20,682 bases of DNA. It comes from a virus. Shown here in pieces: positions 409 through 12,018 of the stretch (position 1 is its first letter; every line of letters starts with the position of its first letter). The stretch spans positions 1 to 20,682 of IMG/VR virus record IMGVR_UViG_3300042691_018355. The stretch is one strand, 5' to 3'. The translations under genes were made by a program, and so were the position numbers. The notes below the pieces were generated by a model. That model did no database searches and was not told the DNA's origin. It saw only the letters and a list, made by a program, of their open reading frames with translations.

Positions 409-861
409 TCAGTTAGTGGGAGGCGTCGGCCACACCACATCTTCTAGCGAAGTTAAGCTAGGTTGATTTTGAGGAAGATCTCGAAGTTGTTGTCGATAGA
501 CTGCCCATTCTTGTTTTTTACTTTGTGTTAGGGGAGAATCAGCGAGCTGAGTCCAATCACAGATATATAATTTTGATAGTCTTTCTTGTCGAATTATATC
601 ATATAATATCTGTGAGTTATACTGCCAACTTTCGTTTTCCCTATCCCAGATGTAGTAATCCCCTGGTCGGGGACTGCGAGTACGCCATTCGTTATTTTTA
701 CGATAGCGAGTAAGTATAAAATTTACCTGATCTTCATTTGAAGAAATTTCATATACTGTACAGCCATCTATAATTTGACCATCATAGTAGTCATTATCGT
801 TACCTGGAGACACAACATGTACCACTTCTCCATTACCGTTTACATATGCAAATTGTTTCAT
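409..861 (-). CDS. Tail fibre assembly / tail assembly chaperone-type protein
   Basis: A protein of 150 residues. The start at 861 is chosen because AAGGAG lies 5 nt upstream and the ATG overlaps the previous stop as ATGA; a TTG 27 nt further upstream has no such support. The C-terminal half holds the signature of caudoviral tail-fibre assembly or tail assembly chaperone proteins: an R-rich helix, then CDWTQLADSPLTQSKKQEW and YRQQLRDLP (residues about 91-130), ending in VVWPTPP. The N-terminal half is a short beta-rich region (FAYVNGNGEVVHVV) of unknown partner. Family members chaperone folding or trimerisation of fibre or tip proteins. Its place just after the tip genes suggests its client is J or one of the two small tip proteins, but the sequence does not show this directly. 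Confidence 0.8.
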   Translation of the reverse strand: MKQFAYVNGNGEVVHVVSPGNDNDYYDGQIIDGCTVYEISSNEDQVNFILTRYRKNNEWRTRSPRPGDYYIWDRENESWQYNSQILYDIIRQERLSKLYICDWTQLADSPLTQSKKQEWAVYRQQLRDLPQNQPSLTSLEDVVWPTPPTN

Positions 862-1526
862 GACAACTCCTTTACTATCATATAGCAACTATCTTTATTT
901 ATTTTTTGAGGAGTAAATACTCCTCCAGGTAAATTATAAGACTCAAATATTATTCTACCATGTGTAGAATTTGCCCAAATACAATTATAACGAATTCGAA
1001 TATCTTCTCCTACAACGTAAGGAGGTGCATGAGGTAGAAAAAATGTACTAGTTCCATTAACAAGACAATAATACTTACTAAAATCTGAATACCAAGTAGT
1101 AGCTGAAGGGAACGCTATATTAATACTATTAGACACATTGCTATTAAGTACTCCAACAGCTACAATCTCAAAATTTCTCTCAATATTAGAATAAAATGTT
1201 ACATTTGATGAGGTATTATATACTGCTATTCCGTAATTTGAATTTGCAGATATTCCTAATGCATCAAATCTTCTACAGACATAGTATCTTGCGGAAGACA
1301 CTAAACTTTTAGACCAATTTGTACCGACATAATCTCTAGCAAGTATACCATTAGTATTGGTATTTGCTCTGGCAAATACCAAATCAGAAGATAATGAATT
1401 TGCTACTCCGGGATACGCAGAGTTTGGAGTAGCCGTATTTAAATTTGAAAAAAAGCCGATATTAGGGTAGTTTAAATCAATAACAATTCTATCATTATTA
1501 TTTAATACTTCGATACCATAGCTCAT
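858..1526 (-). CDS. Small tip-associated protein with M-S-Y-G-I-E-V N-terminus (222 aa)
   Basis: A soluble, Asn/Ser/Tyr-rich protein of 222 residues with no signal peptide or membrane segment. Its first residues, MSYGIEVLNNNDRIVIDLNY, match the opening of the next gene upstream (MAYGLEVYNSSGNTVLSFTS), so the two look like paralogues sharing an N-terminal beta domain. Proteins opening this way are common directly after J-like genes in siphoviruses (I recall DUF6453-type virion proteins) and are presumed tail-tip accessories. The remainder (about 30-222) looks beta-rich with several aromatic residues (YYVCRRFDALG, WYSDFSKYYCLV) and has no motif I recognise. The start overlaps the upstream stop as ATGA, and the stop overlaps the next ATG, so translation is probably coupled. 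A role in receptor binding is inference from position only. Confidence 0.7.
   Translation of the reverse strand: MSYGIEVLNNNDRIVIDLNYPNIGFFSNLNTATPNSAYPGVANSLSSDLVFARANTNTNGILARDYVGTNWSKSLVSSARYYVCRRFDALGISANSNYGIAVYNTSSNVTFYSNIERNFEIVAVGVLNSNVSNSINIAFPSATTWYSDFSKYYCLVNGTSTFFLPHAPPYVVGEDIRIRYNCIWANSTHGRIIFESYNLPGGVFTPQKINKDSCYMIVKELS
867..872 (-). promoter_or_regulatory. Ribosome binding site for the fibre assembly gene
   Basis: AAGGAG on the minus strand lies 5 nt before the ATG at 861. It is one of only two strong Shine-Dalgarno sequences in the window and decides the start of this gene over the upstream TTG at 888. It lies inside the end of the preceding coding sequence. Confidence 0.8.
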
Positions 1527-1804
1527 GATCGTATTACCCAGTAATCTACATTTATTGTAGTTGTAATTTGAGTTTTAACCGTAAAAGACCCTGAGTTTAA
1601 AGTAATTGTTAATCCTACATAAGTATAATTTACAGGAAAAGCAATTACATCCCAGGAGTCATTATTTGCCAACCCTGTAACAGTAACAGTCGTCCCAGTT
1701 GAATTGGCAGTAACAGTTCCACTTTGTACAAATCGAGGAACTCGACTTGTAAAAGAAAGTACTGTATTTCCGCTCGAATTATAAACTTCTAGTCCATATG
1801 CCAT
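1523..1804 (-). CDS. Small tip-associated protein with M-A-Y-G-L-E-V N-terminus (93 aa)
   Basis: A 93-residue, Thr/Val/Asn-rich, probably all-beta protein. It opens MAYGLEVYNSSG and continues SRVPRFVQSGTV, a pattern I associate with small virion proteins encoded next to J in many siphoviruses (DUF6453-like). No catalytic motif, cysteine or membrane segment is visible. The ATG shares one base with the stop of J (TAATG); an AGGA element lies about 12 nt upstream, so reinitiation after J is likely. The same N-terminal pattern recurs in the next gene, which suggests duplication with the longer copy gaining an extra domain. Function in the virion is unknown. Confidence 0.72.
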   Translation of the reverse strand: MAYGLEVYNSSGNTVLSFTSRVPRFVQSGTVTANSTGTTVTVTGLANNDSWDVIAFPVNYTYVGLTITLNSGSFTVKTQITTTINVDYWVIRS

Positions 1805-4800
1805 TATGTTAAATTTCCTAATTTAACTCGTAAAGTTCCACTGGTATCAAAAATTCGAATGCTAGTAGTACTTATTTCCATTCTTTCTCCAGAAGTATTA
1901 CTTTTAATACTTAGTCCTGTAGTAGAAGTACCTGAAATATTAACTACTGCAACATTTATTGTTCCAGCATTCAGTTTATCAGCAGAAAGGTCTAGTATTT
2001 TTGCATTGTTAATAATACCATTTGCAATTTGAATAGTACCCGTAATTACTGCTTCAGTAGTAGAAATTTTAGCTGCTGTTATTGCGCCTGCATTAATTTT
2101 ATTTGTTTCAATAGCATTTGCAGCTATTTTATCTGCTATTACAGCATTTGCAGCAATAGTATATGCTACTACAGCGTTTGCGGCTATTTTACCTGCAATT
2201 ATTGAGTTTGCTATTAGTTTTTCTGCATTAACAGAATTAACATCAAGTTGAACAGTAGTAATTGAATTTGCAGCTATTTTATTAGCAGTTACAGCATTTG
2301 CCTCTAGTTTGGAAGTAATAATAGCTCCATCCTCAATAAGAGTAGCGGTTACTAGCTCTTCAAATCTAACATCTGCAATTTGAATTTCTCCGCCTGAATT
2401 TTCCCAATTAAGTAAAAAAGAAGGAGCTACAAATCTAGTATTAGCATGAAAATTTGAAGGTCCCGCTGTGGTAGTTACTTTTGTCCAGCTTGCAGATGAA
2501 GCACTGCTAGCCCATAGATAAAAGTTATGCCCAGAATTTCCTCCTATAAGAGCGCCCGTAGAATCTCGTTCTTGAAGAGTTGCATAATTATTATATCCTG
2601 GAGTTCCTATTGTTCTATAATAAAACGTAAGTCTATAAGATTTTGTTCTATCAATAGGAATTGTTTTTATACCTTCTCCAGGATACCAGGTCATATTTCT
2701 TGCAGCAGTTCCACTTGCAGCATATGCTACATATCTACCTGCTGGAGCATCTGTTACTATTTTAAATAAAGCTAGCGTACCCCCATAAGTATTACTCCAG
2801 CTAGCTTGATCTTCAAAAGTCGAATCTGGCAATAAGGAAGCTGCTGGATTTGCTACTAATAATTTGTTAGTTGTAACAGAACCTGCTGCTATCTTTACTG
2901 AAGTAATAGAATTAGCTGCTAATTTATCTGTTTCAATAGCTCCCGCTTGAATATTTTCAGCTAATACAGCATTTGCAGCTAATTGAATTGTACTAATTGA
3001 ATTAGCTGCTATTTTTTCTCCTACAATAGTGCCATCTACTATTAAATCTCCTACTGTTTTTTCCTCAAGACGAATATCAGTTATTTCCTGATAGTTAGTA
3101 GTTGAGCTACTTCCAGTCCAGTTTAATATAGTTCTAATTTTTACAGCTCTTTCAGAAGCAGTAGGCGTAAACTCTGTTGATAACTTTTGCCAGGAAGCGG
3201 TGGGAGTAACATATTCTAGTCCACTAAAAGTTAGCTGAACACCGCCTTGATCTAATAATCTTAGATATAAACCACCATTATCGCTACCAACTTTACGTAC
3301 CCAAGCAGATAGTCTATACTTTTTACCACTAGAAACCGGATAACTATTTACAGTTTGAATAGCACACGGTCCTAGACCGTAAGAAGTAAAAACAGAATCA
3401 CCAGAAACCGAATCCCCAATAGTTCGTCTAATAGCTGTTGCGCCATGTGCTCCGTCAGCCCAAGCTGTGTCATCTTGACATCCTGGATCTTCATTTATAG
3501 CTTGGCCTTGTCCAGTAACATATAATTTATTTGTTGTAATTGAACCAGCAGCTATTTTTACCGAAGTAATAGAATTAGCAGCTAACTTATCTGTTTGAAC
3601 AGCCCCTGCTTGAATATTTTCAGCTAATACAGCGTTTGCAGCTAATTGAATTGTAGTAATTGAATTAGCTGCTATTTTATTTGCATCAACAGAATTTGCC
3701 GCTAATTTACTAGTAGTAATGGCCCCATCAGTTATTAAAGTAGCATCTGATTTTTCCATTAATCTTATATTTGTTACAGCATGTTGAATTCCTGTATTCG
3801 AACTATAATTTAATAGTGCCACTAATCTTACATATCTTGCCGCAGTAGGAATAGCTGCAGCTTCGCCAGGACCAAATCCTATTGTATATTCTGTCCACGA
3901 AGAAGGAAAGGCACCCCCTGTTATTCCATAATAAGAATAAGTACCATTACCCCCCCAACCAGAAGGAGAGTTTGCTCCTCCATTTGCCGTATCAAGATAA
4001 GAAGGCATAAGAGCACCGTTAGCAGCATACCAAGCAATTCCTAAATATCCATTTCCTTGTCCTAAAGTTCCTGCGGTTTGTTTAGCCCACATATCTAGTC
4101 TATAAGGCTTATTGGGTTCAATTGGAATGAGCTCAGCATTTTTAACTTCTACAGCTATTCCAGCTGGATTAACTATAGCAGTATTTCCTGCAGGACCATC
4201 TGTTATTCCAGTTAATTGACTACCATTAGGCCATGCTGCAATATCTTGGCCCATAGGATCTGGATTTAATGCAGCCCCACTTCCTGTTACTAGTAACTTA
4301 TTAGTAGTAATAGACTTTGACGCTATTTTTACGGAAGTAATAGAATTAGCTGCTAATTTATCTGTTTCAATAGCTCCCGCTTGAATATTTTCAGCTAATA
4401 CAGCGTTTGCAGCTAATTGAATTGTAGTAATTGAATTAGCAGCTATTTTTTCTGCAATTACTGAGTTAGCAGCTATTTTATTAGCAGTTACAGCATCTGC
4501 GGCTAATTGAATTGTGGTAATTGAATTAGCAGCTATTTTTTCTGCAATTACTGAGTTAGCAGCTATTTTATTAGCAGTTACAGCATCTGCGGCTAATTGA
4601 ATTGTAGTAATTGAATTAGCAGCTATTTTTTCTGCAATTACTGAGTTAGCTGAAATATTTTCGGCTATAACAGAATTTGCTGCTAAAGATTCAGTAGTTA
4701 CAGAATTTGCACTTAAATGACGAGTTACAATTGAATTTGCAGCTAATTTTTCTGCAACTATTGAGTTTGCTTCAAGCTTTTCTGTAGTAATAGCATTTGC

Positions 4801-7800
4801 TGCAATTGTATTTGCCGTAACAGCATTTGCAGCTATTTTACCTGCTACTACTGCTTCTGCTATGAGTTTAGGGCTAGTTATCGCATTATTTGCAATTTCT
4901 GTAGAAGTAATTGTTCCAGGTAATATTTCATCTGGGCGTGGAGAATATGCCGTAGAGACATCGCCTAATTCTACTTGACAATTATCCCAATATACAGTTC
5001 CATTTGGAGCATAAATTCTTACTTCTATAAAAGAAGGGGATGCAGAAGTAGTAAAAGTAACACTTTTTTTAGTCCATACTCCTGTCGCGTGCGAGCTAGA
5101 TAGAGTTAAGTCGGCATTAGAAAGAGTTCCGTCATAAATTAATACACTTCTATTATCTACAGCCCCGCCAGTTATGGAGTTTACATATACCCAGGCTGTA
5201 AAAGTATATGTTGTACTTGGCAATACTGAGCCTGTATATTGTTGATATAAATAAGAATCTTGTCCAGAGGTAGTATGTACAAATTTTGCAGATTTTGTAC
5301 CGCTCAAAGCTCTATCCGTTGAACTAGAGCCTGTAAAACTAATAATTTTAGTCCAATTTTCTAAATCTACAGCGGACTCAAATCCACTATTGTTTAGTAG
5401 ATTTCCACCCCCAAGTGTTATATTTAACTTAGGAGCAGTAATTGCACCAACTTGAACTTGAGCAGCTCCAACAGCATTTGCAGCCATTTTAACTTGTGTA
5501 ATTGCATTTGCTACAAGTGCCGCAGTATTTACAGAATTTAAAGCCATTTTGGCTTCTGTAATTGCACTGCCCACTATTGCAGATGTATTTACAGAGTTTA
5601 GAGCCATTTTGGCTTCTGTAATTGCACTACCTACAATCGCTGCAGTATTTACAGAGTTTAGAGCCATTTTGGCTTCCGTAATTGCGCTTCCTACAATTTG
5701 AGCAGTATTAACAGAAAGAGGCGCTATTTTTGTCTCAGTTACAGCGTTAGAAATTAATTGTGCTGTATTTACAGATAATGGGGCTAATTTTACTTCTGTA
5801 ATTGCAGTATTTGCTATTTTTGTGCTAGTTACTGCACTTGTTGCTATCTTAAGTTCTGTTATAGCTGCAGTTATAATCTGGGCAGTATTAACAGAAAGAG
5901 GGGCTATTTTTGTTTCACTTACTGCATTTGCAGCTATTTTAATTTCAGTTATTGCAGTATTTTGAATTTGTCCTGTATTAACAGAATTTAGTGCTAATTG
6001 AGCTTCTATAAGTTGTCCAGTAATATTTGCTGCGGGAACTGCAGAAGTCCACGCACTACCAGTATACCTGTATAAAACATCTTCTCCGGTTAAAAATACT
6101 ACCCTACCTTCAAAAAGATTAGTACTTGGTAAAGTTCCTACAATCTCATATCCGCCTTTTGCTTTTGCTACTGAAAATTCTCCAGTATACGTTTTTCCAG
6201 CATAACTTGCATTTATTGTTAAAGTTCCAGTATCGTTTGCAGTTGCAAGATTTGTAACAGAATATTGACCTTTAGTAGTTGCAGTATTTGATACTGTACC
6301 TGTAAGTCCAGTAGTTGTAGCACTTGTCCAGCTTGCATTTTCTGTAATATTTACGTCACCACGGTATAGACTTGCTTGACCAGAAGCTCCCGAATAACTT
6401 GCGACAGTACCTTCAGCGTAAGCAAATAAAGTAATACCTGCGCGAGATATTGATAATGAAATTGCAGGCTCTCCTGCAGCGCCATTTGCGCCCGTAGCGC
6501 CATTAGCTCCGGCTGCACCAGCACGAACTCCAGTAAAACTTTGTTGCCGAGTATAAGTTGTTAAATTACCTAAAGTATCTTTTACTGTAATATTATATAC
6601 AATTGAACCTGTATTTGCAGTAAGATTACTATGATTACCATAACGTCTTGTATCGTTTGTAACTGCTGTAGTATTTGTAGTGGGATTAGTATTTACATTA
6701 ATATTTGTATTGCTTGCTACTGCTACATTAAAACTAGGGGATGGAGTGGCTGTTGCATTATAAGTTAATGGAGTATTACCTTCCCATACTAAAATGTCTG
6801 TTCCAGAAGCAGTATAAATACCGTTTAATCCAGAAGAATCTAAAGGAATAGAGTGATTTTCATTTACTACTAATACAGTATGCGCTCCCCTGCCATTTAC
6901 TCCATTAGCGCCAGCTCTTAATCCAGTAAAGCTTTGTTGTATATAATAAGTAATAAAATTACCTAAAGTATCTCTTACACCAATACCGTATACAATATAA
7001 GCTGAATTTGAAATAAGATTACTATGATTACCATAACGTCTTGTATCATTAGTTACAACAGTAGTTACTGTAGTAGGATTTGTATTTGGGGTTATATTTA
7101 AACTATTCTGAACTATAACATTAAAGCTAGGCACTAAAGTTCCAGAAACATTATATGTTAATGGGGTATTCCCTTCCCACACTAAAATATCTGTTCCTGA
7201 AGCAGTATAAATACCATTAGATCCATTAAGGTCTAAAGGAATAGAATGATTCTCGTTAGTAACTAATACTGTATGAGCACTTCTACCTATTGTCCCATTT
7301 GCTCCGTCTACTATTTTTAATATAGTATAAGAGCTGGAAAAGCTTCCAACATTGCTTGTAACTTTTACAAAATTATTATTTGATATCGAACCAAAACTTG
7401 TTGCATTAATTTGAGCTGAAGTATCTGTTCTATTACTTAAAATAGTATTTGCTAAAATATTATTATTCGCATCATAAACATACCAGAGTGTATTAGCTCG
7501 TAAATTTTGACGATTTGCAAATAAAGTTATAACCGAAGGACCAATTAATCCTCCTGCTGACGTATACCTAAATCCATTGCTATCAGCATCTAATATTAAC
7601 AACTGTGGCTCATCTATGGCTGTAACAGCATACCGTATTTCTTCTGAAGCTACATTGCTTGCGTTTTTAGCAATTTTAGAGAATATTGCATCATTAACAA
7701 GATCGATCTTTAGGCTTGGAGTACGAATAGTTTGATTAGTAAAAGATTTTTGTATAACTTCTCTTGTAGTTAGAGAAGTATTACTAGAAATTGTCGAAAC

Positions 7801-10800
7801 TACCGCATAAAAAGAATTTGCCGTATTAGAAGAATTATGTAGTTTAATTAAGCTTCCTATGCCTAAATTACTTGTAAAGTAAGTTCCAGTACCAGTAATT
7901 GTTCGAGAACCGACTGTGGCAGAGACAGTACCAGGAATTTGTATTAGTCCACTATTAGCAATTCCAGCTTCGCTCCAATAGCTATTTCCAGAGCCGTACG
8001 GAGTACGAATACTTGTATCAGTATAATATTTTATAACTTTCCATGGATCAGTAGAATCACTATCATCCCACATTAAAAAGTAGTCGTCATTAGCGGGCAA
8101 AGATTGAAAACTTTGTGAAGTTTGTGCACTTGTGGCCCCATTTACCGTGTACGCTTTTCCTAACGGATTCACATAAGTATATTGACTATCAATTACAGTA
8201 AAAGTATTTGCTTCGAAAAGTACAGCAGAATCTAAAGAACCGCCAGCTTTAATGCCAAAGATATCATAGCCAGGACCTGCAGAAGGCCGAATAAAAGTAA
8301 ACTCAATACTATACCAAGAAGAGTATTGCCCAAATATATTTTTTGTTCGAACTCGTACTATATAAGTTCCCGGACTAATTCCAGAAAGAACTAAATTATT
8401 TCTATTTCCAGAAACTGTTTCTGTTAAAAAGTCTCTATAAGAAGTATTAATATCATCATAAAAATTATGTTGTATTTCATAAGCATCAACATATCTATAC
8501 TCACGAGTATTTGTGTTACCATTACTGTCTGTAAAAGACTCTACCGGGGGTGTCCAAGAAATATAAGCATATAAAATAGAGTCAGAAAGATTGTCCTCAT
8601 CATTTACGTCCATTCTATAGTAATTTGCTATTAAATTAGTAACATTTGGAATATCTTGTCCTGGTCGAGGACCGGTAAAAGTATTATCTCGAATTTGTAC
8701 TTTTGCTTCTAATTCATCAAATTTTTGTTCAGCATAGTTTGATGCTACTATTGAATACACTCCACCCTGTTCTTCTTTGATGCTCAATACTCGATATTTT
8801 TTAGGCTCTACATTATTATCATAAGTAGCATTTTCTAATGCCCAGATACTATCCGTATTTGGAGTAGAAGTAAATGCAGAACTTATATCTATTATATTTC
8901 CTACATAAGGCTCGGCAGTAGTAATAGAACGCTTTTGTACATGTGTATGCTCACTAAATGTAGTGGTTACCACGTTCCCGCTATCATCAAGTAAATTTGT
9001 TGCAGCAACACTTGTAGTAACCCCAGGAATTAAATCTCCTCGATAATAAGTAGTTCCTGATATAACTGCAGAAGCTTGTTGTAGATAACAGCCTGGACCA
9101 TCAAAAACAACATGCAGCGTATGCGCCGTACTTTGAACCGCCGAAGAAGTGTTTCCAAGAATAAGATTATCAATAGTAATAAATTCATTTGTAGAAGATA
9201 CAGCATTAGTAAAACTTATGCTTACATTTGCTATATTTGTACTTAATGAACTACTAAATCCAAAAAACTTATCTTTATTTGCTACTATATTATAAGATTT
9301 TACAGTACCGGAAGTGTATCCAACATTTACTGTAAGCGGCACTTGAGCATTATACGTTCTATACGAAGCAATACCATTTACATTATAGTCTTCAGAAGTA
9401 GTATTTGCAATTGTACGAACAGATATTTCTGCACCAAAAGAACTAATTGCTGGACTAAACTGAGAAAATACTATTCCGGCTTTACTTGTACTTGTAGTAA
9501 GCCCAACATTATTAGAAGTATTTGCAATAGCAGAACTATATCCTTGTGCAGTATATTCTGTCATTGCATCTATTGCTAAAGTACCTGTAGTGCTATTTGC
9601 TCTATAACTGTAACTACCAAGAGATGCGGTATTAGTAGAAGAACGAGTTATCGAAGCTGCTTTTGCTCCAGTGTTCCCCACAAAAGAATTAAAGTTATCG
9701 GTACCAGAAGAGACCAAAGCATTTTCAAAAGAAGTTCTATTGCTAAAAGTGCTGCTCGCAATTGTAACGTCTCTATCTAACGTTATTGTTGTTCCAGAAG
9801 CGGAACGAATACGCCCACTTGCTTGAATAGCATTTAAATGATGATCTTGTACATTTACAATATCTCCAGGTAACAAAAAGTTGGCATTCATGCCAGTACC
9901 AAAACTTATAAATTCTGTCTCAAGCTGAGAAGTTAACATATTCCATAAAGCTACACGATAGGCTTGTCCTTGGCTAGTGCAGCCAAAAGCTACCGAGTTC
10001 ATTGGAACAACTTTTCCTTGCTTAATTATATCCGTTTGATCTGTAACTGTTAATACATCTTGCTGATAGAATTGATCTGGATTGTTCCAGGTAATATTTA
10101 CTTCATTATAACGAGCAAGTCTTCCTGAGTATTCATAATTAAATAATCCATCAACCACATTACCCTGAGTAAATGTATAAATAGGCTCTTTTGGACTATC
10201 TTGAATGGCTAGTAATGCGCCCTGTGCCCATATCATCATACCGCGGAAAGTAGTAGCCAAATCTCGTAATACTTTATAAGCTTCTTCTGCTTCAAAAATA
10301 TATACGTTACAAGTAAAACGAGGCTCCATTCCTCCTTTACCATCTGGAACCAGTTCATCGCAATATCGACCAATTCTATATAAACTATATTTATCTACTA
10401 GTGAGGGGTCTACATATTTACCCAAACCGTATCTTTTATTTGTAGCAAGATCATAAAAAATCCAAGCAGGATTATTTGTATATCGTGTAATAAACGTGCC
10501 GTCCCATGCTCCATTATATTTTGCTTTTCCATCAAAAGATTCTTCTCGCGTCGTATAGTTGGAAGGTACTTGAACTTTTATACCGCGAACATGATATGAA
10601 CGTCCCGGTATGGAATTAAATCCTTCTGAAGGAAAAGTAATTGCAGCATACGCAGAATGAGGATACCTAAATTTATCCAATACCTGACACTCGACATATT
10701 TCAAAGTCGAGGCGCTAACAAAAGTAGCATCATCTGTGCTATAATCACTAGAACTATGTGGATTAATTCTGGATACAATAACTGAAAAATTAGTAAAAGG

Positions 10801-12018
10801 TTTAAACTGCTCTACAGGAATTTCAATTTCGTGTAGAAATGCAGATTCAACCTCTGTTTTATAGAATCCAGAATACCCAGATATTGCCGCCTCCCAGTCA
10901 CGTATTCTTAGATTGCCAGAAGGAAATCCTGCTCCAGAAGAAGGCCCTACTATAATTGCAGTTTTAACCTCTCCTCCTTGAGTATATTGAAACTTAACTT
11001 GAAAACCTGCAAATGCAGGTTGAATTCTACCAGAAGCTCCAGAATTCACGTAAAGACCTGCAGGAAACTCTATTCCTAGCCTTATTTTATCAATTTCTGA
11101 AGCTTCTGTCACTCCCAATGCGGCTGCAGAATAGCTAAGTGGAGATTGTAGTCCATTAAAAGTATTTGTCCATTCTAAAGGCTGTTCAATTGAAGTTAAA
11201 AAGCTAGCAGTTGGAACATCTCCAAAAGTTACTGGAGTTTGATTTAAAGTACCGACTCTAAAATTTACCGCAGTGTTTTTAAAGTTCCATTTATCATTGT
11301 ACAGTTGATCTTGGGCCACTGCTGGAGGTAAGATTTGAAATTTGGTGCCAGAAACGGCTGGAGCAACGTAAACTGTTAAAGAATTTGAAGTTGCAGTATT
11401 TACTACAGCAATGTGATCAATTCCACCAGCTTTATTTACGCCAGAAGTACTTATTGGGGGCTCCACTACAGCAGTATTTGCGTCTATATATTGAGTAACG
11501 GTACCTACATATTCTCTTCCTGCTGCCCCCATGCCAGTAATTCGTAGTTTTGGTCGTGCAGCTATTAATAGAGCAGGATTTATTGCCATATTTGCGGTAA
11601 AAAATCCATTTGCTCTTATTCTAGTATCTCCGACATTTGCGGTAAAAGCGCTTGAAGTTTTTCCTCCGCGTTCGAGAAGTATAATTCGTCCACCTGTGCC
11701 AGATAAATTTACTTCGTTTGAAGATACTGTAGTGCTATTTGCAGTAAAAGTACCATTACCGGAAACTATAGAACTTACCGAAGGTCTATTCGCTTCGGTT
11801 GTTAATGGAGTACCATTTAAATATACACTTGCAGCTCCATTAACAAGACCGTGAATTTCGCCTTCTGAAATTAAGTCATAAACTACGGCATATTGAGGGC
11901 TAGTAGCTCCGGTAGTGCTGCCAACAGAAGTTGCTGTTTGTTGCTGTGTTCCTTGTATTGCCTGGGCTTGTGCTACAGCATCTGCTACCAGTTCTCCATT
12001 TATCGCTGAAATTCCCAT
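1804..12018 (-). CDS. Giant modular tail-tip / central fibre protein, lambda J-like (3404 aa)
   Basis: This is the tip attachment and host-recognition protein, about three times the length of lambda J (1132 aa). Residues 1-750 are the conserved tip hub: VYDLISEGEIHGLVNG near 48-63, the WIFYDLATNKRYGLGKYVD segment near 518-537, and LLPGDIVNVQD near 716-726. An extra domain interrupts the hub (about 754-965). A fibronectin-like domain follows (about 1126-1245), then beta-rich modules, a tandem duplication of about 131 residues (1578-1839), a Gly-X-Y run and an Ig-like domain ending in FSVAKAKGG. The distal half (about 2005-3320) alternates decapeptide-repeat stalks with four carbohydrate-binding-like domains. 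The last 85 residues (LDLSADKLNAGTIN, then SIRIFDTSGTLRVKLGNL) form a typical J C-terminus. The start has a strong AAGGAG 6 nt upstream. The hub assignment is firm; the sugar-binding role is inference. Confidence 0.92.
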   Translation of the reverse strand: MGISAINGELVADAVAQAQAIQGTQQQTATSVGSTTGATSPQYAVVYDLISEGEIHGLVNGAASVYLNGTPLTTEANRPSVSSIVSGNGTFTANSTTVSSNEVNLSGTGGRIILLERGGKTSSAFTANVGDTRIRANGFFTANMAINPALLIAARPKLRITGMGAAGREYVGTVTQYIDANTAVVEPPISTSGVNKAGGIDHIAVVNTATSNSLTVYVAPAVSGTKFQILPPAVAQDQLYNDKWNFKNTAVNFRVGTLNQTPVTFGDVPTASFLTSIEQPLEWTNTFNGLQSPLSYSAAALGVTEASEIDKIRLGIEFPAGLYVNSGASGRIQPAFAGFQVKFQYTQGGEVKTAIIVGPSSGAGFPSGNLRIRDWEAAISGYSGFYKTEVESAFLHEIEIPVEQFKPFTNFSVIVSRINPHSSSDYSTDDATFVSASTLKYVECQVLDKFRYPHSAYAAITFPSEGFNSIPGRSYHVRGIKVQVPSNYTTREESFDGKAKYNGAWDGTFITRYTNNPAWIFYDLATNKRYGLGKYVDPSLVDKYSLYRIGRYCDELVPDGKGGMEPRFTCNVYIFEAEEAYKVLRDLATTFRGMMIWAQGALLAIQDSPKEPIYTFTQGNVVDGLFNYEYSGRLARYNEVNITWNNPDQFYQQDVLTVTDQTDIIKQGKVVPMNSVAFGCTSQGQAYRVALWNMLTSQLETEFISFGTGMNANFLLPGDIVNVQDHHLNAIQASGRIRSASGTTITLDRDVTIASSTFSNRTSFENALVSSGTDNFNSFVGNTGAKAASITRSSTNTASLGSYSYRANSTTGTLAIDAMTEYTAQGYSSAIANTSNNVGLTTSTSKAGIVFSQFSPAISSFGAEISVRTIANTTSEDYNVNGIASYRTYNAQVPLTVNVGYTSGTVKSYNIVANKDKFFGFSSSLSTNIANVSISFTNAVSSTNEFITIDNLILGNTSSAVQSTAHTLHVVFDGPGCYLQQASAVISGTTYYRGDLIPGVTTSVAATNLLDDSGNVVTTTFSEHTHVQKRSITTAEPYVGNIIDISSAFTSTPNTDSIWALENATYDNNVEPKKYRVLSIKEEQGGVYSIVASNYAEQKFDELEAKVQIRDNTFTGPRPGQDIPNVTNLIANYYRMDVNDEDNLSDSILYAYISWTPPVESFTDSNGNTNTREYRYVDAYEIQHNFYDDINTSYRDFLTETVSGNRNNLVLSGISPGTYIVRVRTKNIFGQYSSWYSIEFTFIRPSAGPGYDIFGIKAGGSLDSAVLFEANTFTVIDSQYTYVNPLGKAYTVNGATSAQTSQSFQSLPANDDYFLMWDDSDSTDPWKVIKYYTDTSIRTPYGSGNSYWSEAGIANSGLIQIPGTVSATVGSRTITGTGTYFTSNLGIGSLIKLHNSSNTANSFYAVVSTISSNTSLTTREVIQKSFTNQTIRTPSLKIDLVNDAIFSKIAKNASNVASEEIRYAVTAIDEPQLLILDADSNGFRYTSAGGLIGPSVITLFANRQNLRANTLWYVYDANNNILANTILSNRTDTSAQINATSFGSISNNNFVKVTSNVGSFSSSYTILKIVDGANGTIGRSAHTVLVTNENHSIPLDLNGSNGIYTASGTDILVWEGNTPLTYNVSGTLVPSFNVIVQNSLNITPNTNPTTVTTVVTNDTRRYGNHSNLISNSAYIVYGIGVRDTLGNFITYYIQQSFTGLRAGANGVNGRGAHTVLVVNENHSIPLDSSGLNGIYTASGTDILVWEGNTPLTYNATATPSPSFNVAVASNTNINVNTNPTTNTTAVTNDTRRYGNHSNLTANTGSIVYNITVKDTLGNLTTYTRQQSFTGVRAGAAGANGATGANGAAGEPAISLSISRAGITLFAYAEGTVASYSGASGQASLYRGDVNITENASWTSATTTGLTGTVSNTATTKGQYSVTNLATANDTGTLTINASYAGKTYTGEFSVAKAKGGYEIVGTLPSTNLFEGRVVFLTGEDVLYRYTGSAWTSAVPAANITGQLIEAQLALNSVNTGQIQNTAITEIKIAANAVSETKIAPLSVNTAQIITAAITELKIATSAVTSTKIANTAITEVKLAPLSVNTAQLISNAVTETKIAPLSVNTAQIVGSAITEAKMALNSVNTAAIVGSAITEAKMALNSVNTSAIVGSAITEAKMALNSVNTAALVANAITQVKMAANAVGAAQVQVGAITAPKLNITLGGGNLLNNSGFESAVDLENWTKIISFTGSSSTDRALSGTKSAKFVHTTSGQDSYLYQQYTGSVLPSTTYTFTAWVYVNSITGGAVDNRSVLIYDGTLSNADLTLSSSHATGVWTKKSVTFTTSASPSFIEVRIYAPNGTVYWDNCQVELGDVSTAYSPRPDEILPGTITSTEIANNAITSPKLIAEAVVAGKIAANAVTANTIAANAITTEKLEANSIVAEKLAANSIVTRHLSANSVTTESLAANSVIAENISANSVIAEKIAANSITTIQLAADAVTANKIAANSVIAEKIAANSITTIQLAADAVTANKIAANSVIAEKIAANSITTIQLAANAVLAENIQAGAIETDKLAANSITSVKIASKSITTNKLLVTGSGAALNPDPMGQDIAAWPNGSQLTGITDGPAGNTAIVNPAGIAVEVKNAELIPIEPNKPYRLDMWAKQTAGTLGQGNGYLGIAWYAANGALMPSYLDTANGGANSPSGWGGNGTYSYYGITGGAFPSSWTEYTIGFGPGEAAAIPTAARYVRLVALLNYSSNTGIQHAVTNIRLMEKSDATLITDGAITTSKLAANSVDANKIAANSITTIQLAANAVLAENIQAGAVQTDKLAANSITSVKIAAGSITTNKLYVTGQGQAINEDPGCQDDTAWADGAHGATAIRRTIGDSVSGDSVFTSYGLGPCAIQTVNSYPVSSGKKYRLSAWVRKVGSDNGGLYLRLLDQGGVQLTFSGLEYVTPTASWQKLSTEFTPTASERAVKIRTILNWTGSSSTTNYQEITDIRLEEKTVGDLIVDGTIVGEKIAANSISTIQLAANAVLAENIQAGAIETDKLAANSITSVKIAAGSVTTNKLLVANPAASLLPDSTFEDQASWSNTYGGTLALFKIVTDAPAGRYVAYAASGTAARNMTWYPGEGIKTIPIDRTKSYRLTFYYRTIGTPGYNNYATLQERDSTGALIGGNSGHNFYLWASSASSASWTKVTTTAGPSNFHANTRFVAPSFLLNWENSGGEIQIADVRFEELVTATLIEDGAIITSKLEANAVTANKIAANSITTVQLDVNSVNAEKLIANSIIAGKIAANAVVAYTIAANAVIADKIAANAIETNKINAGAITAAKISTTEAVITGTIQIANGIINNAKILDLSADKLNAGTINVAVVNISGTSTTGLSIKSNTSGERMEISTTSIRIFDTSGTLRVKLGNLT
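2065..2345 (-). repeat. Decapeptide stalk block 5 in J
   Basis: Residues about 3225-3318 contain about nine decapeptides (for example TANKIAANSI, AEKLIANSII, ADKIAANAIE) leading into the conserved C-terminal cap. These copies are more diverged at DNA level than those in block 2. Confidence 0.8.
2346..2860 (-). other. Carbohydrate-binding-module-like domain 4 of J
   Basis: Residues about 3053-3224 show the entry SLLPDSTFEDQASWS, then DRTKSYRLTFYYR, WTKVTTTAGPSNF, RFVAPSFLLNW and the closing IQIADVRFEE with junction LIEDG. It is aligned by landmarks with modules 2 and 3 but diverged in the loops. Confidence 0.6.
2861..3045 (-). repeat. Decapeptide stalk block 4 in J
   Basis: Residues about 2992-3052 run from TIVGEKIAANSI to SVTTNKLLVAN. 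It is the third copy of the composite linker (2861-3015), including LAENIQAGAIETDKLAANSI. It separates modules 3 and 4. Confidence 0.85.
3046..3519 (-). other. Carbohydrate-binding-module-like domain 3 of J
   Basis: Residues about 2834-2991 share an architecture with modules 2 and 4: entry GQGQAINEDPGCQDDTAW, SGKKYRLSAWVRK, WQKLSTEFTPTASERAVKIR, closing EITDIRLEEK and junction LIVDG. Two cysteines (GCQ and GPCAIQ) occur only in this module. Confidence 0.6.
3520..3737 (-). repeat. Decapeptide stalk block 3 in J
   Basis: Residues about 2762-2833 run from AITTSKLAANSV to SITTNKLYVTG. The distal 150 bp (3524-3677) is nearly the same sequence as 2861-3015 and 4295-4449, so a composite linker of about 50 residues recurs before three of the four binding-like modules. 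Confidence 0.85.
3738..4290 (-). other. Carbohydrate-binding-module-like domain 2 of J
   Basis: Residues about 2577-2761 begin after LLVTGSGAALNPDP. They show the jelly-roll landmarks IEPNKPYRLDMWAKQ, a Gly/Trp/Tyr-rich loop (SPSGWGGNGTYSYYG), WTEYTIGFG and a closing VTNIRLMEK followed by the junction LITDG. The fold is inferred from the strand pattern and its similarity to modules 3 and 4. Confidence 0.6.
4291..4923 (-). repeat. Decapeptide stalk block 2 in J, including a 90-bp near-perfect tandem repeat
   Basis: Residues about 2366-2576 consist of roughly twenty-one decapeptides of the form xTxKIAANS[VI]. Within it, 4411-4500, 4501-4590 and 4591-4650 are tandem copies of a 90-bp unit (two full, one two-thirds) that I read as differing at only two positions, 4411/4501 and 4426/4516. 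Each unit encodes three decapeptides (TTIQLAADAV, TANKIAANSV, IAEKIAANSI). Such identity points to very recent amplification or gene conversion. Confidence 0.9.
4927..5420 (-). other. Carbohydrate-binding-module-like domain 1 of J
   Basis: Residues about 2199-2364 open with GGGNLLNNSGFESAVDLENW, a hallmark of CBM4/9/22-like jelly-rolls (N-x-GFE-x-W). They continue with SGTKSAKF, TTYTFTAWVYV, WTKKSVTFT and VYWDNCQVELG. This is the most recognisable of the four modules. No ligand can be read from the sequence. Confidence 0.7.
5421..6008 (-). repeat. Decapeptide stalk block 1 in J, including three 60-bp tandem copies
   Basis: Residues about 2005-2198 consist of roughly nineteen 10-residue units alternating between AITEAKMALN-like and SVNTAAIVGS-like sequences. 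At DNA level the period is 60 bp. The clearest copies are 5521-5580, 5581-5640 and 5641-5700, which differ at about ten positions per pair. Older, more diverged copies extend to about 6000. It probably forms an extended trimeric stalk before the first binding-like domain (inference). Confidence 0.85.
6502..7287 (-). repeat. Tandem duplication of a ~131-residue beta domain in J
   Basis: Copy A is residues 1578-1708 (DNA 7287-6895) and copy B residues 1709-1839 (6894-6502). Both contain AHTVLV, NENHSIPLD, NGIYTASGTDILVWEGN, TNDTRRYGNHSNL and QQSFTG at matching offsets. The central part (after TPLTYN) has diverged while the flanks remain nearly identical. Each copy is joined by a short Gly-X-Y stretch. 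It is an in-frame duplication within coding sequence. Confidence 0.88.
8281..8643 (-). other. Fibronectin type III-like domain of J
   Basis: Residues about 1126-1245 hold the usual landmarks: a proline-containing first strand region (YAYISWTPPVESF), YEIQHNFYDD in the middle, and the closing pattern SGISPGTYIVRVRTKNIFG. Lambda-type J proteins carry such domains after the hub. It probably spaces the hub from the distal binding region. Confidence 0.65.
9127..9759 (-). other. Extra jelly-roll-like domain inserted in the J tip hub
   Basis: Between the conserved strand LDRDVTI (residues 747-753) and HTLHVVFDGPG (from 966), lambda J has only a short connection. Here about 210 residues are inserted, rich in Asn, Ser and Thr. 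They read as a beta-sandwich: SLGSYSYRA, then FGAEISVRTI, KFFGFSSS and the closing ITIDNLILG, reminiscent of anchor or lectin jelly-roll domains of bacterial surface proteins. Boundaries are by eye and the fold is inferred. Confidence 0.5.

Follow-up and report, generated by a model that had tools for sequence, protein, structure and literature searches.

How is the distal half of the longest J protein among those compared here built, and how did its repeated parts come to be arranged as they are? The window, the whole 20,682-nucleotide stretch of virus DNA that was analysed (IMG/VR record IMGVR_UViG_3300042691_018355), contains a 3404-aa tip-protein frame that runs uninterrupted over 1804-12018 on the minus strand. 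An earlier note on this DNA had proposed a normal J hub followed by four sugar-binding-like modules on repeated stalks, and both parts of this description were borne out. The hub matches PHROG 31 'central tail fiber J' over aa 243-755 (E 5.9e-143) and PF13550 over aa 577-730 (E 7.1e-21), and it also matches by sequence the solved lambda J structure 8iyk, homologous to window aa 410-757, and a pyocin tail fibre. The neighbourhood has the gene order tape measure, minor tail M and L, K-like, I, J: the ORFs 5' of J match Phage_min_tail, Phage_tail_L, Prok-JAB (K-like) and PHROG 32 tail assembly (I-like). The tape-measure position is occupied by a 1766-aa ORF without Pfam match. We consider it quite probable that the gene encodes a lambda-J/Tal-type tip consisting of the hub, four CBM modules on a stalk and a cap, with linker-bounded exchange of the modules. 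The features of the protein are as follows.

1804..12018, minus strand: J-type tail-tip protein gene, 3404 aa, single reading frame (PF13550, PHROG 31, solved lambda J match)
9754..11292, minus strand: conserved J hub, aa 243-755 (PHROG 31 and PF13550)
6499..7278, minus strand: tandem pair of ~130-aa domains, aa 1581-1709 and 1712-1840, 'HTVL...QQSF' (75% DNA identity)
5425..5994, minus strand: stalk 1, aa 2009-2198, 10-residue repeats (periodicity scan; 30-nt spaced repeat families)
4933..5421, minus strand: module M1, aa 2200-2362, CBM_4_9-like (PF02018 E 5.1e-9, above cut-off)
4285..4923, minus strand: stalk 2, aa 2366-2578, near-identical 90-nt tandem units plus linker K1 (periodicity, repeats, 89-nt exact repeat)
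4285..4452, minus strand: linker K1, aa 2523-2578 (DNA identity 90.5% to K3, 84.6% to K2)
3751..4284, minus strand: module M2, aa 2579-2756 (homologous to M3/M4; AF2 pLDDT 61.8, Foldseek CBM16 6e-5)
3523..3681, minus strand: linker K2, aa 2780-2832 (DNA identity, dN/dS, synonymous codons)
3049..3510, minus strand: module M3, aa 2837-2990, CBM4-like (PF02018 28.3 bits; AF2 model on CBM4-2 2y64)
2851..3018, minus strand: linker K3, aa 3001-3056 (DNA identity, dN/dS, synonymous codons)
2344..2847, minus strand: module M4, aa 3058-3225 (homologous to M2/M3; PF02018 sub-threshold E 0.0026)
1972..2334, minus strand: stalk 5, aa 3229-3349 (periodicity scan)
1807..1971, minus strand: C-terminal cap, aa 3350-3404, end RVKLGNLT (similar ends in the J-type proteins of records L034 and L113; weak match in L089)

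Over aa ~2009-3404 the order is stalk-M1-stalk-M2-stalk-M3-stalk-M4-stalk-cap. Specifically, a periodicity scan identified five stalk runs with a 10-residue period (aa 2009-2198, 2366-2575, 2763-2832, 3004-3053 and 3229-3349), and the gaps between them, of 168, 188, 172 and 176 residues, are modules M1-M4. The entry signature T-x-x-K-L-x-[VI] is found at aa 2194, 2571, 2828 and 3049 only and precedes all four modules, while the exit LI-x-DG closes M2-M4 (aa 2761, 2992 and 3227) and occurs a fourth time at aa 2293 inside M1. The common signatures claimed earlier for M2-M4 are thus present, the entry being shared with M1 as well and the exit closing only the other three; the ~50-residue linkers reported before M2, M3 and M4 lie within about 10 bases of the positions given above. 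The 30-residue tandem units of the stalk differ by one synonymous change and, judged from their sequence, appear to be very recent. Comparison of the stalk with the PDB returned weak, repeat-driven matches only. Between the hub and the first stalk, an extra domain with the C-terminal sequence 'EFITIDNLILG' sits right behind the hub (aa 761-1000; 9019-9738, minus strand). The HTVL...QQSF domain pair is present as two copies in the related record L003 too; per-segment identities hint at gene conversion within the pair but are mixed (82% between copies 1 and 2 of L003, 89% between window copy 2 and copy 1 of L005).

Two of the four modules, M1 (37.1 bits) and M3 (28.3 bits), exceed the curated cut-off of 25.9 bits for PF02018 (CBM_4_9), whereas M4 stays below it (18.6 bits, E 0.0026) and M2 has no PF02018 match. 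After removal of the linkers, M2, M3 and M4 are mutually homologous, with Smith-Waterman Z scores of 11.8, 13.9 and 14.3 against 500 shuffles, and M1 is a more distant relative of them (Z 1.6-4.5); M2 and M4 thus appear CBM-like through their kinship to M3 rather than as Pfam members. The AF2 model of M3, built from nine sequences (pLDDT 77.8), superposes on CBM4-2 (2y64) with a Z score of 15.4 and an rmsd of 2.5 Å over 142 aligned residues, and its top Foldseek matches are CBM4, CBM16, CBM61 and phage tailspike domains. The M2 model is of low confidence, and its best Foldseek match is CBM16, with CBM4 also found. Unrelated module folds, the outcome that the earlier note held would speak against its proposal, were therefore not found: M2-M4 are homologous, the M3 model is CBM4-like and the M2 model matches the same families. 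Together, sequence and models indicate that M1-M4 are CBM4/16-type β-sandwich modules set in line on the stalk, and probably sugar-binding domains. Beyond its hub the protein carries at least two CBM modules joined by linkers, as multi-CBM tip proteins do. Across 48 records, PF02018 matched in six only, although further modules are visible by eye; Pfam counts therefore understate the number of modules. An iterated HMM built from the modules also collects aa 739-877, possibly a further β-sandwich or a product of profile drift, and because drift is possible this segment was left out as a fifth module.

Lambda J, at 1132 aa, is too short for a four-module array, unlike the 3404-aa window protein, and to our knowledge it carries no CBM chain. 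The general arrangement is nevertheless not new, contrary to the earlier note: multi-CBM tips have been published (PMC9437275; PMC8540738), and the chain with the LIVDG exit can be found in public records. Tal proteins are predicted to carry one to five CBMs on linkers, in variable number and 'LEGO-like' (PMC9437275; PMC8540738), and ongoing shuffling of receptor-binding domains has also been published (PMC10684548). The Tal proteins of Oenococcus phage Vinitor162 (PMC8540738) and of S. thermophilus phages (PMC9437275) are likewise long tip proteins in which linkers string CBM4/16/22-like modules together behind a hub, with up to five CBMs per monomer and a variable number of similar modules. 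They differ from the window protein, with its lambda-J-type hub and 10-residue-repeat stalks, in their Gram-positive hosts and, for S. thermophilus, in linkers that are collagen-like with 3-beta domains. Also similar in design are J or tail proteins from Paracoccus phage Pkon1 (MK291442), DSS3_VP1 (MN602266), Rhizobium phage RHph_X3_2 and contig L113, which have a window-like 10-residue stalk, a LIVDG-type exit and 160-215-residue modules between stalks. As read from sequence, the modules number three in Pkon1, three to four in DSS3_VP1, two in RHph_X3_2 and five in L113, and they can hardly be aligned with those of the window. The tip-type protein of L113 (4539-10139) contains a non-adjacent duplicate pair, its modules 1 and 3, with 42% identity. 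The best internal DNA repeats of these four proteins are in the stalk, at about 67-89%, whereas the window has three linkers of 85-90% identity between its modules.

These linkers, K1, K2 and K3 (~54 codons each), share 85-90% DNA identity over 157-195 nt, within a sharp-edged identity block of ~50 codons. By the Nei-Gojobori method, dS is 0.28-0.44 between linkers versus 0.84-1.36 among M2, M3 and M4, and dN is 0.05-0.09 versus 0.8-1.0. Because codon usage is AT-rich and the linkers are very low in GC3, we scored the sharing of codons at identical amino acids against a null based on codon usage in the stalk itself. The linkers share 36-41 of 48-50 codons against a null of 24.6-26.3 (Z 3.4-4.3), whereas module pairs, with Z from -1.3 to 1.4, stay close to the null; the exception is a weak excess in M2-M4 (Z 2.3), a pair that may trace back to one older joint duplication with its linker. 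Since silent sites are alike in the linkers and near the null in most module pairs, the sharing or homogenisation of the linkers postdates the divergence of the modules. The linkers are far more alike than the modules, as would be expected for module swapping at common linkers, and this contrast in age points to exchange at the linkers or gene conversion of the linkers, not to one event that duplicated module and linker together.

The earlier note had taken module plus linker as the unit of duplication. In such a history, a module with its preceding linker would have been copied twice as a block, the modules then diverging fast under selection while the linkers were structurally conserved. The modular logic stands, and M2-M4 are clear paralogues with common entry and exit signatures; moreover, the linker identity runs slightly into the first codons of the following module, the M2-M4 pair shows its excess of shared synonymous codons, and modules 1 and 3 of L113, at 42% identity, are evident paralogues. 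The very different divergence of linkers and modules, however, does not fit a jointly duplicated unit: fast protein divergence leaves unexplained why synonymous similarity was lost in most module pairs and retained in the linkers, and purifying selection on the linker protein sequence does not hold silent sites. We therefore regard block copying as unlikely and module exchange at linkers as the better model of these sequences. For the window's own lineage, exchange is what we infer; another J family offers direct evidence from sequence comparison that modules are exchanged between conserved linkers. This family, found in Pasteurellaceae-like prophages (host inferred; L027, L034, L035, L038 and L039), resembles the window in having a J hub and CBM-type modules between conserved linkers, and its modules vary in number and identity across near-identical hubs. 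Between L034 and L038, the hubs are mostly 95-100% identical and the linkers 90-100%, while the modules are only 10-40% identical; L038 and L039 are near-identical save chiefly for one module region, of which the L038 version is CBM_4_9, and the shorter L027 is without a stretch found in L034. The hubs of these distant J proteins are ~42% identical to that of the window, and their linkers are of another type: instead of the 10-residue stalk, a '...DWTPAPEDADSAI...' segment leads into a stretch resembling a coiled coil. In the pair DSS3_VP1 and DSS3_PM1, which are 97% identical and collinear, exchange was not found. A module 43% identical to M3, with the window-type entry ITTNKLLVTGQGAALN and the exit GDLIVDG, lies inside an unlike 2452-aa protein in L082/L083 (8001-8501), which suggests that such modules move between unlike proteins.

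Could the order and number of modules instead be a product of short-read assembly, mis-joined at exact repeats of 62-89 nt in a mixed population whose members carry different modules? The window, a virus record of the IMG/VR type, contains exact repeats of 89, 71 and 62 nt, which could lead a short-read assembly astray and are the chief caveat on how many modules there are and in what order. In addition, the contigs of the closest relatives (L002-L007, hubs 86-95% identical; L008-L012, 51-64%) run out inside J in 11 of 11 cases, which is expected if assemblers break at the distal repeats; L003, for instance, aligns collinearly at 82% identity as far as aa 2117, short of M1, and its contig ends there. 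Nevertheless, no break interrupts the reading frame, other records (L113, DSS3_VP1, Pkon1) also hold chains, of three to five modules, and the linker copies differ from each other at 10-15% of their positions, enough for longer k-mers to tell them apart. We thus consider an artefact very unlikely. Full-length J genes from close relatives were sought by megablast of the J gene against phage records and by scans for M2-M4 as a single block and for the downstream 222-aa gene, each of which gave no match, whereas a scan with the J C-terminus gave a single weak match, L089.

The modules might also be structural spacers that bind no glycan, the receptor being bound by the C-terminal cap alone. Lambda J contacts LamB via its C-terminal 149 residues (PMC7291167), and the module loops of the window protein are highly divergent, both of which would suit such a role. 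The fold and family are, however, those of glycan binders (PF02018, Foldseek, CBM4-2 superposition), and the Dit and Tal CBMs of dairy phages, where assayed, bind host cells (PMC9437275), which makes a purely structural role improbable. In skunaviruses, the ancillary CBMs that were assayed do not differ in specificity from the main receptor-binding protein (PMC8540738), which favours avidity over several specificities.

On the preferred reading of a hub, four modules and a cap with exchange at the linkers, and by analogy with known J and Tal biology, a presumed homotrimer would display up to 12 modules on a flexible fibre extending beneath the tail. Reversible, avidity-based binding of these modules to surface glycans would precede engagement of the final receptor by the tip. 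The linkers may act as conserved joints kept alike via recombination or gene conversion, at which whole modules would be swapped; the module would then be a linker-bounded unit of exchange and not half of a block-copied cassette, and the stalk would lengthen and shorten by recent tandem duplication of its 30-residue units. More speculatively, the near-identical linkers might be kept as recombination joints through which phages with this linker draw on a common CBM pool and reassemble their tips in the population, yielding trimers with several glycan specificities, a scenario that we regard as doubtful. The multi-CBM tip has been described chiefly in phages that infect Gram-positive bacteria; the window protein extends it to the lambda-J type, and its young linkers beside old modules provide a testable case for module exchange at linkers. 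Such exchange, if true, would explain how tips alter their glycan recognition by replacing single beads.

Downstream of J, two consecutive genes on the minus strand (858-1526 and 1523-1804) have a common N-terminus (MSYGIEVLNNN and MAYGLEVYNSS) and match only PHROGs of unknown function; they are likely to be small tip or fibre accessories. The third gene downstream (409-888, minus strand) encodes a tail fibre assembly chaperone (PF16778).
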